64,000 nt of DNA from Thiobacillus sp. 63-78 (GTDB taxonomy: Bacteria > Pseudomonadota > Gammaproteobacteria > Burkholderiales > Thiobacillaceae): positions 1 through 64,000 of the forward strand of contig MKWM01000016.1 in the NCBI GenBank assembly GCA_001899765.1, read 5' to 3'. The notes beneath the pieces are model-generated. The model was not told the origin of the DNA. It did not search any database and was given only the letters and a program-made list of their open reading frames with translations. Of the stretch, positions 2,953 through 47,090 are shown one piece after another. A program made the position numbers and the translations under genes. The number at the start of each line of letters is the position of its first letter. Position 1 is the first letter of the stretch.

Positions 2953-3219
2953 GATGCAAGCTTGCGCGTGACCTGGCCACGCGTGCAGGGCGTTTGATCG
3001 TCCGTCGGCAGGACGCTCCCATGCCCCGGCCCCGCACGCTGCCTGCCGCGACCGATTTCCCGGCCCGGCGCGCCAGGCGCGGGAGCGTGCCGCAGCGTGA
3101 AACGGGGCAGTTTGACGAGACCAAGGGTTTTCAGTCTGGAGAGATGCAGAAGCGTGACGACAAGGGCGAACTCGACCCCAAGGTCAACTCATCGTCGGCT
3201 TGCCGATATCTGACGCTGG
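2953..3219. other. Intergenic stretch without a recognised gene
   Basis: Between the ATPase and the restriction-modification island. A short plus-strand frame (2994-3251) has no recognisable domain and no good ribosome site. I see no RNA gene here. The hairpin and palindrome that follow are listed separately. Confidence 0.5.
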
Positions 3220-3253
3220 AATCAAACGGGACGCTGCGGCGTCCCGTTTGATT
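3220..3253. repeat. 15-bp perfect inverted repeat (hairpin)
   Basis: AATCAAACGGGACGC at 3220-3234 and its exact reverse complement at 3239-3253, separated by TGCG. The core (GGGACGC...GCGTCCCGTTT) resembles the terminator-like hairpin at 90-107. No T-run follows on either strand, so it is a weak terminator candidate. It marks the left side of the restriction-modification island. Confidence 0.6.
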
Positions 3254-3303
3254 CACAGATAGCGACGTCTGCCAGAAAATACCCAGAAAATACGTTGCGT
3301 CTG

Positions 3304-3331
3304 AAAAAAGATCTTTATAAAGATCTTTTTT
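3304..3331. promoter_or_regulatory. 28-bp perfect palindrome with two AGATCT sites upstream of the methyltransferase
   Basis: AAAAAAGATCTTTA at 3304-3317 is followed directly by its reverse complement at 3318-3331. The two arms carry AGATCT at 3309-3314 and 3321-3326. A -10-like TATACA follows at 3335-3340, ten bases before the methyltransferase ATG, and another -10-like TATAAA sits at the centre of the palindrome. It is probably an operator for the restriction-modification system. AGATCT is the BglII recognition sequence, and the neighbouring nuclease looks BglII/BstYI-like. Confidence 0.7.
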
Positions 3332-3349
3332 AAGTATACAGTTCGCCTC

Positions 3350-4213
3350 ATGTCGAACCGACCTCTCCGCCCCGAAAACGGGCCGCCTCCCCTTCCTGAG
3401 ATCGCCGGGGGATTCTCCACGGTTCTTGCCGACCCGCCTTGGCGATTCGCCAATCGAACTGGAAAGGTCGCCCCGGAACATCGGCGACTCGATCGCTATT
3501 CTACGATGTCATTGGAGGCGATCAAGGCAATGGATGTGGAAAGCATCCTCGCCCCGAAAGCCCATCTATATCTCTGGGTTCCGAACGCCTTGCTGCCTGA
3601 CGGGCTCGAGGTTATGAAGGCTTGGGGGTTCCGCTATGTGTCGAATATCGTTTGGGCCAAGAGGCGCAAAGACGGTGGTCCGGACGGGCGGGGCGTGGGG
3701 TTCTATTTTCGCAATGTTACGGAGTTACTGCTGTTCGGCGTTCATGGATCGATGCGCACGCTTGCACCGGGTAGAACTCAGGTCAATATGATCGAGACAC
3801 GGAAACGCGAACACTCCCGCAAGCCGGACGAGCAGTATGCCCTGATTGAATCGTGTTCTCCGGGGGCCTACCTCGAGTTATTCGCACGCCACGCGAGATC
3901 AGGGTGGTCCGCCTGGGGCGATGAATCGTCCGATGAAGTCACCCCGCGGGGGGGTATTCACAAGGGATATGAGGGGGGGCCGATATTGCCATCCTTGCTT
4001 CCAAACGAACATCTTGATCCTGACAGGGCGTCCGCTATCGGACTGGAACTGCGAACTCGATACGAGGCCGGGATGAGCGTGAGGCAGCTTGCGGATGAGA
4101 CAGGATATTCAATACAGCGTATTCGTACGTTGTTGAGTGCGTCAGGCGTCGCCATGCGTCCCCGGGGGCGCAACACACAACTCGCTCAATTCGACATGTT
4201 TCACGCGGAATAA
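3350..4213 (+). CDS. MT-A70 family adenine-N6 DNA methyltransferase of a type II R-M system
   Basis: 287 residues. It should transfer a methyl group from S-adenosylmethionine to adenine in a restriction site. The catalytic motif DPPW is at residues 28-31, followed by the MT-A70 pattern LYLWVPN and a later TELLLFG strand. Residues about 242-267 (VRQLADETGYSIQRIRTLL) look like a helix-turn-helix, an unusual C-terminal addition that could bind DNA and autoregulate. The start has no Shine-Dalgarno; a -10-like TATACA 15-10 bases upstream suggests a leaderless or nearly leaderless mRNA. The 3' end overlaps the convergent nuclease gene by 13 bases. The codon bias is less GC-rich than in neighbouring genes, which fits horizontal acquisition. 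Specificity AGATCT or RGATCY is inferred from the partner nuclease and the palindrome. Confidence 0.88.
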   Translation: MSNRPLRPENGPPPLPEIAGGFSTVLADPPWRFANRTGKVAPEHRRLDRYSTMSLEAIKAMDVESILAPKAHLYLWVPNALLPDGLEVMKAWGFRYVSNIVWAKRRKDGGPDGRGVGFYFRNVTELLLFGVHGSMRTLAPGRTQVNMIETRKREHSRKPDEQYALIESCSPGAYLELFARHARSGWSAWGDESSDEVTPRGGIHKGYEGGPILPSLLPNEHLDPDRASAIGLELRTRYEAGMSVRQLADETGYSIQRIRTLLSASGVAMRPRGRNTQLAQFDMFHAE

Positions 4214-4905
4214 GGCTGGCCGTTCCATGTGGCCTGGGTTGCCGCAACCACCAGGAGCGGGCAGGTTCCCATCACGCCACGTCGTACACGGAGCGCAGCT
4301 TTTTCCAGGTTGGTTGTGGTGGACGTGGACAGATCCACGGGTAGCCGCGGGTTGCGTTGGCCAATGGGCAGGGTTTCCTGATAAGACGCCCAAATCCGAT
4401 TCGCAAGTTCCTTTAGTGCGAGCCTGTCCTGCGTAATCAGCACCGCTGCTGAAATCACCCCAGCCTCGTGCCAGGCCCGGTATGCGGACAGGTCACGATC
4501 CAGGTTGCCGTCTTTGGCATTCCACTCGACGTCCAAAGCCACGCGCCCCTTGAAGTTATCCACCAGATAACCCTCCTGTTCCGTTGGCGGCAGCCTATCC
4601 ACCACATTGCCGTTCTTCGCGATCAGAACACCTTGGGTCGATAGGTCTACACGAATTTCTCGCCAACCTCGTTGAGAGAACAGGCCATCAATTTCCTGCG
4701 CGATGTCACCGCGGTTTCCCCCGCTTTTTAACCAGCGGGCAGGATCAAGAGAGAAGGAGGCTAGAACTTCAGTGATATCGCGCCATTCTTCGGGGCAAAC
4801 AGCCCGCAGTACTGCGGCGGCCGAGCTTGTCTCAAGGAACGCCCAGCGAGCACGGATTGCCGGGTCCAGAACGAGTGGATCCTCGTAGGTGTTTGTATCG
4901 TACAT
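4201..4905 (-). CDS. Type II restriction endonuclease, BglII/BstYI-like
   Basis: 234 residues, close to BglII (223) and BstYI (203). The best motif is DVEWNAKDGNLDRDL at 125-139, which resembles the catalytic strand of the BglII family (acidic pair followed by Glu-x3-Lys-like spacing, then a conserved Arg-Asp-Leu). GDIAQEIDGLFSQRGW at 66-81 fits the family's helical segment. It faces the methyltransferase gene and overlaps its 3' end by 13 bases, so the two transcripts collide, a layout common in R-M pairs. It lacks a strong ribosome site at the ATG at 4905. The family call rests on motif memory; recognition of AGATCT or RGATCY would follow from it but is not shown. Confidence 0.75.
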   Translation of the reverse strand: MYDTNTYEDPLVLDPAIRARWAFLETSSAAAVLRAVCPEEWRDITEVLASFSLDPARWLKSGGNRGDIAQEIDGLFSQRGWREIRVDLSTQGVLIAKNGNVVDRLPPTEQEGYLVDNFKGRVALDVEWNAKDGNLDRDLSAYRAWHEAGVISAAVLITQDRLALKELANRIWASYQETLPIGQRNPRLPVDLSTSTTTNLEKAALRVRRGVMGTCPLLVVAATQATWNGQPYSA

Positions 4906-10621: not shown

Positions 10622-11554
10622 TCAGAACGTCTTGCCGAACGCGATCATGAGCCGCTCGGCAATCTGCTGCCGGTTTGGCGCATGATTCTGTCCCCCGCGG
10701 TGCTCGATTTTGATCGCGCCCATCACGCTTGCCAACTGACCGGATGTCTCCCAGTCGAGTCCGTGGCTAATGCCGTACAGAATACCGCTGCGGTAGGCGT
10801 CGCCGCAACCGGTGGGATCGACGATGGCCGCCGGCCGCACCGCCGGAATGTCGAGTTGTCCGGAAGCCGTGTGGATCACCGAACCCTCGCCGCCGCGCGT
10901 CACGATCAGCGCCTCGACGTGGCGTGCCAGCGTGGCCAGATCTTCTCCGGTGCGGCTCTGCAACAACTCGGCCTCGTAATCGTTGAGGATGACATACCTG
11001 GACTTGTGCACGCATTCCAGCAGTTCCTCGCCCGAAAACAGCGGCATGCCCTGGCCCGGATCGAACACGCACGGCACGCCGGCCTCGTGAAAGCCGCGTA
11101 TGTGGCACAGCATGCCGTCGCGCCCATCCGGGGCGACGATGCCCAGCCCGACGTCCGCCACCTGGCGCACGTCGTTCTCGTGCGAATAGTTCATCGCGCC
11201 AGGGTGGAAGGCGGTGATCTGGTTGTCGTCGAGGTCGGTGGTGATGAAGGCCTGGGCGGTGTAGGTGCCGGCGACATGGCGAATGCAGTCGCGCGGAATC
11301 TCCAGGGCATCGAGGCGCCCGGCATAAGGGCTGAAATCGTCGCCCACGGTCGCCATGATCAGCGGCTCGCCGCCCAGCAGCTTCAGGTTGTAGGCGATGT
11401 TGCCGGCGCAACCGCCATACTCGCGGCGCATCTCCGGCACCAGGAACGACACGTTCAGCATGTGGATCTTGTCGGGCAGGATGTGATGCTTGAAACGATC
11501 CTGGAACACCATGATGGAATCGAAAGCGAGGGAACCGCAAATGAGGGTGCGCAT
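10622..11554 (-). CDS. PfkB-family carbohydrate/nucleoside kinase (adenosine kinase-like)
   Basis: 310 residues, ribokinase fold. It phosphorylates a sugar or nucleoside hydroxyl from ATP. The N-terminal GSLAFDSI, the substrate-lid region REYGGCAGNIAYNL (PfkB signature 1) and the C-terminal DPTGCGDAYRSG (signature 2) are present. The last is an atypical form of the usual DTTGAGDAF, with Cys in place of Ala but the catalytic Asp kept. The beta-proteobacterial relatives I remember are annotated adenosine kinase or simply carbohydrate kinase, so the substrate is uncertain. No operon partner is obvious. Confidence 0.88.
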   Translation of the reverse strand: MRTLICGSLAFDSIMVFQDRFKHHILPDKIHMLNVSFLVPEMRREYGGCAGNIAYNLKLLGGEPLIMATVGDDFSPYAGRLDALEIPRDCIRHVAGTYTAQAFITTDLDDNQITAFHPGAMNYSHENDVRQVADVGLGIVAPDGRDGMLCHIRGFHEAGVPCVFDPGQGMPLFSGEELLECVHKSRYVILNDYEAELLQSRTGEDLATLARHVEALIVTRGGEGSVIHTASGQLDIPAVRPAAIVDPTGCGDAYRSGILYGISHGLDWETSGQLASVMGAIKIEHRGGQNHAPNRQQIAERLMIAFGKTF

Positions 11555-44718: not shown

Positions 44719-47090
44719 GGTGGAGGCCCGGGCAGGGTTGGCGCGGAATCTCCCGGCGTGTCGATGCCTGTGTTCCATCCGGCCGGGGGCGCGTCGGGGG
44801 GCGGAAATTCCTGATAGAAATGTTCGACCATCCCCTCTGAATGGGTGCCCAGGATATTTCCCAGGAATTCTCCTATCGGGGAATCGGGCAGCCGGGTTCC
44901 GGTGTTCGGATCGATATTCACGCTGACGATGCCGGCGGGCATGGTCCAGCCCAGTTGCGGTACTCCTTTCAACGCGGGGCCCATGAAGCCCATCCAGATC
45001 GGCAGGGCGGATTGCGCGCCGGTTTCGTGCCGACCGAGCGAGCGTGGCTGGTCGTAACCCATCCAGGCGATGGCCACCAGATCGGGCGTATAGCCGGCGA
45101 ACCAAGTGTCGCGCGCATCGTTGGTCGTGCCGGTCTTGCCGGCGATGTCGCTGCGCCCGAGTTTGGCGGCGCGTGCGCCGGTCCCGTAGCGCACCACATC
45201 CTGCAGCATGTCCGTCATCAGCCAGGCGTTACGTGGATCGATCACGCGCGGGGCGCTTCCTCCTGCCGTCTGCGGCTTGGCTTCCATCAGCAGCCGGCCA
45301 TCCTTGTCGTAGACCTTGTCGATCAGATAGGGCGTGACGCTGAAACCGCCATTGGCGAAGACGCCGTAGGCCGCAGCCAGTTGCAGCGGGGTGACGCTGC
45401 CCGCGCCGAGCGCCATGGTGAGATAGGGGGGGTGACGGGCAGGGTCGAAGCCAAAACGCCGGATATAGTCGCGCGCGTAATTCGGTCCGATCCCCTGCAG
45501 AATGCGTACCGATACCAGATTGAGCGATTTGGTCAGCGCGGTGCGCATGCGCACCGGGCCGCTGGTGCCGCCGTCGTAATTCTGCGGCTCCCAGGCGGTG
45601 CCGCCCGCCTCTTCGGCGCTGAGCGTCAGCGGCATGTTGTCGATCATGGTGGCCGGGGTGTAGCCTTTTTCCAGGGCGGCCGAATAGATGAACGGCTTGA
45701 AGCTCGAACCGGGCTGCCGCCAGGCCTGGGTGACGCGGTTGAATTTATTGCGGTGGAAATCGAAGCCGCCGACCAGTGCGGTGATGGCGCCATTGTTCGG
45801 ATTCAGGGCCACCAGCGCGGCCTCCACTTCGGGAAGCTGTGCCAGTCGCCACTGCGGCGGCTTGCCGCCGGTCGCCTGGACGCGTACCACGGCGCCGGGG
45901 GCAAGCTGGCGTCCTTTTTTTCCGCTTGTCCAGTTGGCCACCCATTTGAGCGAGTCGCCGGTAATCTCGACGACCGTGTCGTCCTCCAGCTGGGCGCGGA
46001 TCAGTTTGGGGCTGACGTTCACGACGACGGCAGGCAGCATGTCGCTGACTGGCGCGAGATCTTCCAGCGCGTTGGCGATGGCCGCTTCGCGATCGGCCTT
46101 GTCAGCGGGCAGACTGACTTCTTTTTCCGGCCCGCGATAGCCATGGCGCTGGTCGTAGTCGGCAATGCCGCGCCAGACCGCGAGGTCGGCCGCGGCCTGT
46201 TGGGCGCGGCGCAAGGTGGTGATGGCCTTGTAACCCGAACTGTAAATCGATTCGCCATATTTTTCGAACAGGGTCTGGCGCACCATTTCGGCGGCGTAAT
46301 CGGCCGAAACGTCCGTTTGCTGCCGGGCCTGGCGAATCACCAGTTTCTGTTTGACGGCGGCCTGCCAGGTCGCCTGGTCAATGAATTTGAGCGTGCGCAT
46401 CCGCCCCAGGACATATTCCTGGCGTGCCTTGGCGCGGGGGAAATTGACGACCGGATTGTAGCGTGAGGGCGCCTTCGGCAAGCCGGCCAGCATGGCGAAT
46501 TCCGGCAGCGACAATTCGCGCATCGGTTTGCCGAAGTAGGTGCGGGCGGCTGCTTCGAAGCCGTAGGCACGCTGGCCCAGATAGATCTGGTTGAGATACA
46601 GCTCGAGAATCTTGTCCTTCGTCAGGCTGTGTTCGATCTTGATCGCCAGCATGGCCTCGGACAGTTTGCGGGTGAGCGTTTTCTCGTTGGACAGGAAGAA
46701 GTTTCGCGCCACCTGCATGGTGATGGTCGAGGCGCCTTCCTTGGCGCCGCCGGATACCAGATTGGATACTGCGGCGCGCAGCACACCCAGCGTATCCACG
46801 CCGCCATGCTCATAGAAGCGCTCGTCTTCGGCGGCGATGATCGCCTGTTTCATGTAAGTCGGGACTTTCTCGATGGCGATGAACGCCCGCCGTTCCTCGC
46901 CGAATTCGCCGATCAGGGCGCCGTCGGCCGTGTAGACGCGTAACGGCAGCTTGGGTTTGTAGTCTGTCAGCGCTTCGAGCGGCGGCAGATTCGGGTAAAT
47001 CAGGGCGGCCGCCAATCCGGCCAGTGCCGTGCCCACGACGCCGAGACTGACAATCAATGCCAGTGCGTAATGCCACCATTTCGAAAACAT
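44715..47090 (-). CDS. ponA: Penicillin-binding protein 1A
   Basis: 791 residues from the ATG at 47090 (AAGGAA upstream). One N-terminal membrane helix, a glycosyltransferase 51 domain (EDERFYEHGG near 83, GASTITMQVARN), an OB-like domain, and a transpeptidase domain with the active Ser in SSFKPF (near 462), a SLN motif and KTGTTND near 650. It polymerises and crosslinks peptidoglycan in the periplasm. It is divergent from pilM, an arrangement conserved in many beta- and gammaproteobacteria. Confidence 0.96.
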   Translation of the reverse strand: MFSKWWHYALALIVSLGVVGTALAGLAAALIYPNLPPLEALTDYKPKLPLRVYTADGALIGEFGEERRAFIAIEKVPTYMKQAIIAAEDERFYEHGGVDTLGVLRAAVSNLVSGGAKEGASTITMQVARNFFLSNEKTLTRKLSEAMLAIKIEHSLTKDKILELYLNQIYLGQRAYGFEAAARTYFGKPMRELSLPEFAMLAGLPKAPSRYNPVVNFPRAKARQEYVLGRMRTLKFIDQATWQAAVKQKLVIRQARQQTDVSADYAAEMVRQTLFEKYGESIYSSGYKAITTLRRAQQAAADLAVWRGIADYDQRHGYRGPEKEVSLPADKADREAAIANALEDLAPVSDMLPAVVVNVSPKLIRAQLEDDTVVEITGDSLKWVANWTSGKKGRQLAPGAVVRVQATGGKPPQWRLAQLPEVEAALVALNPNNGAITALVGGFDFHRNKFNRVTQAWRQPGSSFKPFIYSAALEKGYTPATMIDNMPLTLSAEEAGGTAWEPQNYDGGTSGPVRMRTALTKSLNLVSVRILQGIGPNYARDYIRRFGFDPARHPPYLTMALGAGSVTPLQLAAAYGVFANGGFSVTPYLIDKVYDKDGRLLMEAKPQTAGGSAPRVIDPRNAWLMTDMLQDVVRYGTGARAAKLGRSDIAGKTGTTNDARDTWFAGYTPDLVAIAWMGYDQPRSLGRHETGAQSALPIWMGFMGPALKGVPQLGWTMPAGIVSVNIDPNTGTRLPDSPIGEFLGNILGTHSEGMVEHFYQEFPPPDAPPAGWNTGIDTPGDSAPTLPGPPP

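Follow-up and report, generated by a model that had tools for sequence, protein, structure and literature searches.

The window, by which we mean the whole 64,000-nucleotide stretch of DNA analysed here, contains a methyltransferase gene and, adjacent to it, a gene for a PF09195 nuclease. Judged by these family assignments, the locus is a type II R-M system of the BglII/BstYI family. The features relevant to its control are the following:

3304-3331, no strand: perfect 28-bp palindrome read from the sequence, with both sites inside; found once genome-wide at up to 3 mismatches
3309-3314, no strand: putative operator site 1, AGATCT, of the RGATCY class, position-conserved in relatives
3314-3319, plus strand: putative -35 element, TTTATA, with one base in common with site 1, 17 bp before the putative -10
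3321-3326, no strand: putative operator site 2, AGATCT, 12 bp from site 1, the same spacing as in 35 aligned pairs
3337-3342, plus strand: putative -10 element, TACAGT, at a TAnnnT-type position with offset 28 from site 1; a nearly leaderless transcript would be expected
3350-4213, plus strand: MT-A70 DNA methyltransferase (N6-adenine type), 287 aa; PF05063, 2.2e-28, residues 22-192
4040-4177, plus strand: HTH_58 domain at the C-terminus of the methyltransferase, residues 231-276; PF19575, 1.6e-10
4201-4905, minus strand: BglII/BstYI-family restriction endonuclease, 234 aa; PF09195 (Endonuc-BglII), 8.7e-28

The methyltransferase and nuclease genes are convergent and overlap at their 3' ends. 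The nuclease scores 97.5 bits against PF09195, for which the curated cut-off is 26, and its structural model (mean pLDDT 91.3) matches BstYI first and BamHI next among PDB entries. The first-pass annotation of this DNA had described the partner nuclease as BglII/BstYI-like, and the family match as well as the structural match to BstYI agree with that description. The model of the methyltransferase has a lower mean pLDDT (71.3), with a low-confidence stretch at residues 201-212 ahead of the HTH helices, which are themselves well predicted (224-239, 244-251 and 255-264).

The palindrome, AAAAAAGATCTTTATAAAGATCTTTTTT, was found at the coordinates originally given for it, with its two AGATCT copies in place, and two sites of the system's own type do indeed stand directly before its methyltransferase gene. 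It is the longest perfect even palindrome of the window, the runners-up measuring 18 and 16 bp, and occurs once in the 3.21-Mb genome even when up to 3 mismatches are allowed. Its final base is 18 bp ahead of the methyltransferase start, so that two RGATCY-class sites are located at 19-41 bp before the start codon. The window as a whole is not enriched in AGATCT (6 copies, 8.2 expected). The single copies mentioned earlier were found at 10938, 37198 and 46057, together with a fourth at 46583 that had been missed. Of the 298 AGATCT copies in the genome, two pairs fall within 30 bp; the second was considered as a further copy of the operator, lies inside an ORF and was taken as chance. The pattern RGATCY-N6-RGATCY is found at two further places. 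An AGATCT pair within 30 bp is thus unremarkable when taken alone; what goes beyond chance is its recurrence before homologous genes. A separate near-perfect inverted repeat with GAATCAAACGGGACGC arms lies at 3219-3254, 50 bp upstream of the palindrome. It is also a single copy in the genome, its predicted fold has an energy of -34.5 kcal/mol (z -9.4), and the scan reported no terminator-like T run there.

Recurrence was examined in a survey of relatives. Loci gathered by the nuclease comprised 80 kept of 93 genome loci, and those gathered by the methyltransferase included 80 kept of 158 viral loci. Among plasmids, 151 records had a methyltransferase match, in 9 of them covering at least 80% of the query; 6 regions were taken from these and included. 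The nuclease Pfam family is present in 16 of 369 class-level genomes, and methyltransferase matches occur in 18 of 149 related genomes and in 32 of 398 genomes in the phylum. Filtering for an identity of at least 50%, a protein of at least 180 aa and at least 100 bp of upstream DNA passed 190 of 231 records. Two copies of the window (L025 and L116) were left out, and L109 was lost at this step despite carrying AGATCC and AGATCT 24 bp apart. Fifty-one methyltransferases, the window's own included, bear the HTH domain; at 85% identity they fall into 34 groups. The profile for this domain comes from 22 loci that had already been inspected; no promoter DNA was used.

At least two RGATCY sites lie within 120 bp upstream in 49 of the 51 HTH-bearing loci, as opposed to 3 of the 139 HTH-less ones. 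Among the latter, 124 have no RGATCY in this interval, 12 have one and 3 have two, none as a close pair. Restricting the count to AGATCT gives two copies in 40/51 and 0/139, respectively. One further HTH-bearing locus, L077, had a miscalled start; after correction its sites are at -44 and -19, making it the 50th with two sites. All ten HTH-bearing loci that came from the methyltransferase query (L117-L120 and L226-L231) have at least two sites, two of them sitting in records that were likewise recovered with the nuclease as query. Close pairs, with RGATCY sites 10-26 bp apart, stand upstream of 48 of the 51 HTH-bearing genes. The exceptions are L077, on account of its start, L226, with two sites 55 bp apart, and L050, with a single site. 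In L050 this is one AGATCT at -29, which takes the place of a pair inside an A/T-flanked palindrome of about 30 bp.

Could such pairs have arisen by chance in an A/T-rich promoter? AGATCT pairs do so, as shown by scanning viral contigs at the DNA level alone for sites in pairs or triplets. Among the matches listed there, 356 loci yielded one methyltransferase match, of 31% identity, and no pair upstream of it; the bare site pattern is not diagnostic by itself. Chance as an explanation of the window's pair is nevertheless extremely improbable, since only 23 of 5100 dinucleotide-preserving shuffles of the HTH-bearing upstreams produced a close pair, against 48 of 51 real sequences, and as a full account it is already refuted by the recurrence before homologous genes. 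Elsewhere in the HTH-bearing loci close RGATCY pairs number 5 in 366,641 bp, and close clusters in the 139 HTH-less loci number 19 in 816,401 bp. Ahead of the nuclease gene a close pair was seen in 1 of 43 cases, L080, in which divergent genes share the region.

Which part of the palindrome has been kept? The spacing within pairs is 12 bp in 35 cases, 18-20 bp in 9 and 22-24 bp in 5. When the 35 pairs with 12-bp spacing are aligned, GATC is invariant and the flanks are A/T-rich, with little else retained. The 96 operator sites comprise 83 AGATCT, 8 AGATCC and 5 GGATCT, so that all 13 departures stay within RGATCY; pairs were defined by RGATCY, yet in none of the HTH-bearing loci is a pair missing for the reason that one partner has drifted out of this class. 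The conserved feature is therefore the RGATCY pair, mostly AGATCT and mostly 12 bp apart, rather than the whole 28-bp palindrome. The overall dyad, earlier described as suited to a dimeric repressor, is not the conserved element: the entire palindrome is not kept among relatives, and the pairs of many of them lie outside any one long palindrome. The regulatory role ascribed to the sites, on the other hand, is supported by the depth of their conservation, the pair recurring across phyla together with an HTH-bearing methyltransferase.

The variants also bear on target specificity, which had been left as AGATCT or RGATCY. Over 175 residues the methyltransferase core shares 70% identity with M.Nph3I of Nitratiruptor phage NrS-3, and the nuclease is 30% identical to R.Nph3I. 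These two proteins are reported to methylate and cut RGATCY, with 6mA blocking the nuclease and RG(6mA)TCY as the measured methylation product (PMC10734518). Since the characterised relative M.Nph3I methylates RGATCY, since the variant sites are exclusively AGATCC and GGATCT, and since the nuclease model is nearest BstYI, the target is likelier to be RGATCY than AGATCT. Of the two candidates the RGATCY class is thus favoured by homology to Nph3I, and AGATCT becomes the less likely one. M.Nph3I has 209 aa and ends soon after the core, so that recognition of RGATCY requires no fused HTH there.

Is the HTH domain linked to the pair? Across the loci, presence of the pair tracks the HTH domain, not the nuclease. 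In L226-L229 an HTH-bearing methyltransferase with an AAA ATPase gene nearby has two sites in each case, and no nuclease matching the window's was found near the methyltransferase. These loci (L226/L237, L227, L228 and L229) are actinobacterial plasmids, in which the HTH methyltransferase stands beside the ATPase gene and not beside a BglII-type nuclease; in the L226/L237 record, a McrC-like protein (PF10117, 1.2e-19) is encoded next to the ATPase. The opposite combination occurs in L041 and L135: their nucleases are 77-78% identical to the window's, but their methyltransferases lack the HTH domain and have no pair upstream. The same loci bear on the idea of a fail-safe, by which the nuclease would cut the methyltransferase promoter when the sites are unmethylated and so tie survival of the module to methylation. 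The nuclease family does cut RGATCY, but sites that are kept with no matching nuclease nearby speak against this idea, which moreover accounts neither for the double site nor for its position before the gene. We regard it as highly improbable.

The association has its confounders. In a tree of core columns with 106 rows, the HTH label changes 4 times on the best topology, of which well-supported branches force only 1. The HTH-bearing enzymes are thus largely one clade and provide one independent contrast; therefore, their association with the pair is not independent proof, and no significance can be attached to it. Many of the HTH-less methyltransferases stand immediately behind another gene and might have no promoter to themselves. 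Only 22 of the 80 dereplicated HTH-less rows show an upstream gap of 60 bp or more, and 0 of these 22 show the pair. One HTH-less locus, L190, whose nuclease is 60% identical to the window's, carries two RGATCY sites 20 bp from each other (-289/-269 from the methyltransferase start), within or close to an ORF upstream. An HTH-like match downstream of the methyltransferase in L082, one of the Actinomycetospora loci, was found to be a separate ORF and was not counted as part of the system.

Several HTH-less methyltransferases (L027, L149, L127, L136 and L159) are abutted upstream by small ribbon-helix-helix-like genes, the matches in L127, L136 and L159 falling below the Pfam cut-off. These small genes are perhaps separate regulators, whose job the fused HTH may do in the HTH-bearing enzymes. 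Their presence raises the question of whether a separate, unlinked or host regulator binds an A/T-rich palindrome in the window, with AGATCT merely being part of its motif. Such regulators are common in R-M systems, and the aligned pairs have A/T-rich flanks. However, the sites recur across phyla along with the methyltransferase, whereas one would hardly expect a host factor to travel with a mobile gene, and the variation of the sites keeps to the RGATCY class. A separate regulator of this kind is therefore quite unlikely.

Where do the sites lie with respect to the promoter? The putative promoter would start transcription near the ATG, with site 1 touching the -35 element and site 2 within the -35/-10 spacer. 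Among the 35 aligned pairs, 24 have A at the second base of the -10 hexamer position. When tested for the TAnnnT type (A second, T sixth), 12 of 35 agree at offset 28, the highest count of 20 offsets, with the next at 7. A consensus promoter scan placed a promoter-like match at 3252-3280, ahead of both sites, and did not have the proposed -35 and -10 elements among its matches.

Given this placement, control could be exerted through methylation alone, after the manner of CfrBI: once methylated, the two sites within the putative promoter would directly alter the binding of RNA polymerase, and the HTH domain would serve some other end. The sites are probable methylation substrates inside the putative promoter, and the CfrBI methylation site is described as overlapping the -35 of the methylase gene (PMC3978073, PMC12707154). 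Against such control, the pair is linked to the HTH domain, and a device of this kind would work equally well in L041 and L135, which have no pair, a comparison confounded by operon structure because the methyltransferase of L041 overlaps an upstream 102-aa gene. On balance we consider control by methylation alone unlikely.

The reading that we think is probably correct is that the paired sites form an autoregulatory operator made of the system's own target sequence, bound by the HTH-fused methyltransferase, which thereby represses its own promoter. The first-pass annotation had imagined a dimeric repressor on the dyad. A binding protein is retained here, with the difference that the likelier binder is the methyltransferase itself by way of its C-terminal HTH domain, an element absent from that annotation. 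Once sufficient methyltransferase has accumulated, it would bind the site pair, the fused HTH domain giving stable or tandem binding. Since the sites fall at the putative -35 and in the spacer, RNA polymerase would then be blocked, and the resulting negative feedback would hold the methylase below the level at which incoming DNA is protected. Because these sites are probable substrates of methylation too, the affinity is probably adjusted by how far they are methylated. The pair itself, its conservation, its closeness to the gene and its association with the HTH domain can be seen directly in the loci; binding, repression, the promoter elements and the part played by methylation we infer from this arrangement, and the specificity from homology. 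Several observations count against autorepression by the HTH-fused enzyme: the HTH-bearing enzymes are largely one clade, many HTH-less genes may have no promoter to themselves, L050 has just one site, the two sites of L226 stand 55 bp apart, the scan's promoter-like match is not the putative promoter, and the spacing varies (12, 18-20 and 22-24 bp), which a rigid dimer would not predict.

That such control may matter is suggested by an R-M system in Acinetobacter baumannii A118. According to PMC10287943, the methylase mRNA of this RGATCY system rises about 50-fold without its HTH regulator, and deletion of the regulator leads to methylation of further GATC-containing motifs and lets foreign DNA pass. 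By analogy, keeping a methylase of this type scarce would therefore be a real need. It is also a general one, as an R-M system that enters a new host has to produce its protective enzyme ahead of the nuclease and later to limit the amount of that protective enzyme. If the proposed autorepression is true, the promoter would measure either the free enzyme at, or the methylation of, the enzyme's own target, and the locus would provide a compact circuit for testing methylation feedback.

A more far-reaching and rather doubtful version is that of a methylase that reads itself: a small array of sites that the enzyme itself methylates would make up the operator, and through the fused HTH domain the methyltransferase would convey to its own promoter how far the cell is methylated. 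Two actinobacterial loci with HTH-less methyltransferases, L085 and L095, have a RAMA-like gene before the methyltransferase (PF18755, 9.3e-18 in L085; the one in L095 is 59% identical to it). Just upstream of this gene are arrays of RGATCY in exact 8-bp steps, three in L085 (5597-5618) and four in L095 (5561-5590). RAMA is described as a proposed 6mA reader, for which evidence is conflicting (PMC11037411). These two related loci hint at more than one origin of operators assembled from sites of the enzyme itself, which possibly serve to sense methylation. No RAMA relatives were found in viral contigs, and the genomes of L101 and L115 have RAMA matches, but no methyltransferase in the stretches examined and no array.

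How does this arrangement compare with known systems? Two modes are described in reviews and introductions: autorepression by methyltransferases that carry an HTH domain, and methylase promoters sensitive to methylation. The methylases described as experimentally shown to be regulators are six C5-cytosine enzymes, and the sites of regulation are described as other than the site that is methylated. SsoII, Ecl18kI and EcoRII resemble the window's system in that HTH-fused methyltransferases are reported to act as repressors of their own expression at an operator that covers the promoter. They differ in being C5-cytosine enzymes with an N-terminal HTH, whereas the window's enzyme is of the MT-A70 type with a C-terminal HTH_58; it would therefore work like the SsoII-type class without being a member of it. 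For SsoII, the regulatory site is described as distinct from the methylation site and the two functions as mutually exclusive; the conserved sites here are RGATCY, the class that M.Nph3I methylates and the probable target of the window's enzyme.

Another close system is Nph3I (PMC10734518), which shares the MT-A70-type core and a nuclease of the PF09195 family. Its methyltransferase, however, has no fused HTH, compared with 287 aa including HTH_58 in the window. Its genes share one orientation, the nuclease gene coming first, then the methyltransferase gene and then a small separate HTH gene, while the genes of the window are convergent. The A118 system is described as sharing a BglII/BstYI-family nuclease, 6mA in RGATCY and repression of the methylase through an HTH protein; there, the regulator is a separate gene. 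CfrBI, LlaDII and AhdI are reported to carry one or more of their own recognition sites in the methylase promoter. CfrBI, as described, differs in having one site and divergent, overlapping promoters, where the window has two sites, convergent genes and an HTH-fused methylase. Further papers cited in this context are PMC3459991, PMC3874152, PMC6100179 and PMC3695355. In the open-licence literature searched, we found no description of an HTH methylase with an operator of its own target class. The window thus appears to combine two known modes of R-M regulation, an HTH-bearing methylase and an operator of that methylase's target class; if this is true, an MT-A70 adenine enzyme whose substrate serves as its operator, kept across phyla, would join the mode known from SsoII and its kin with that known from CfrBI.
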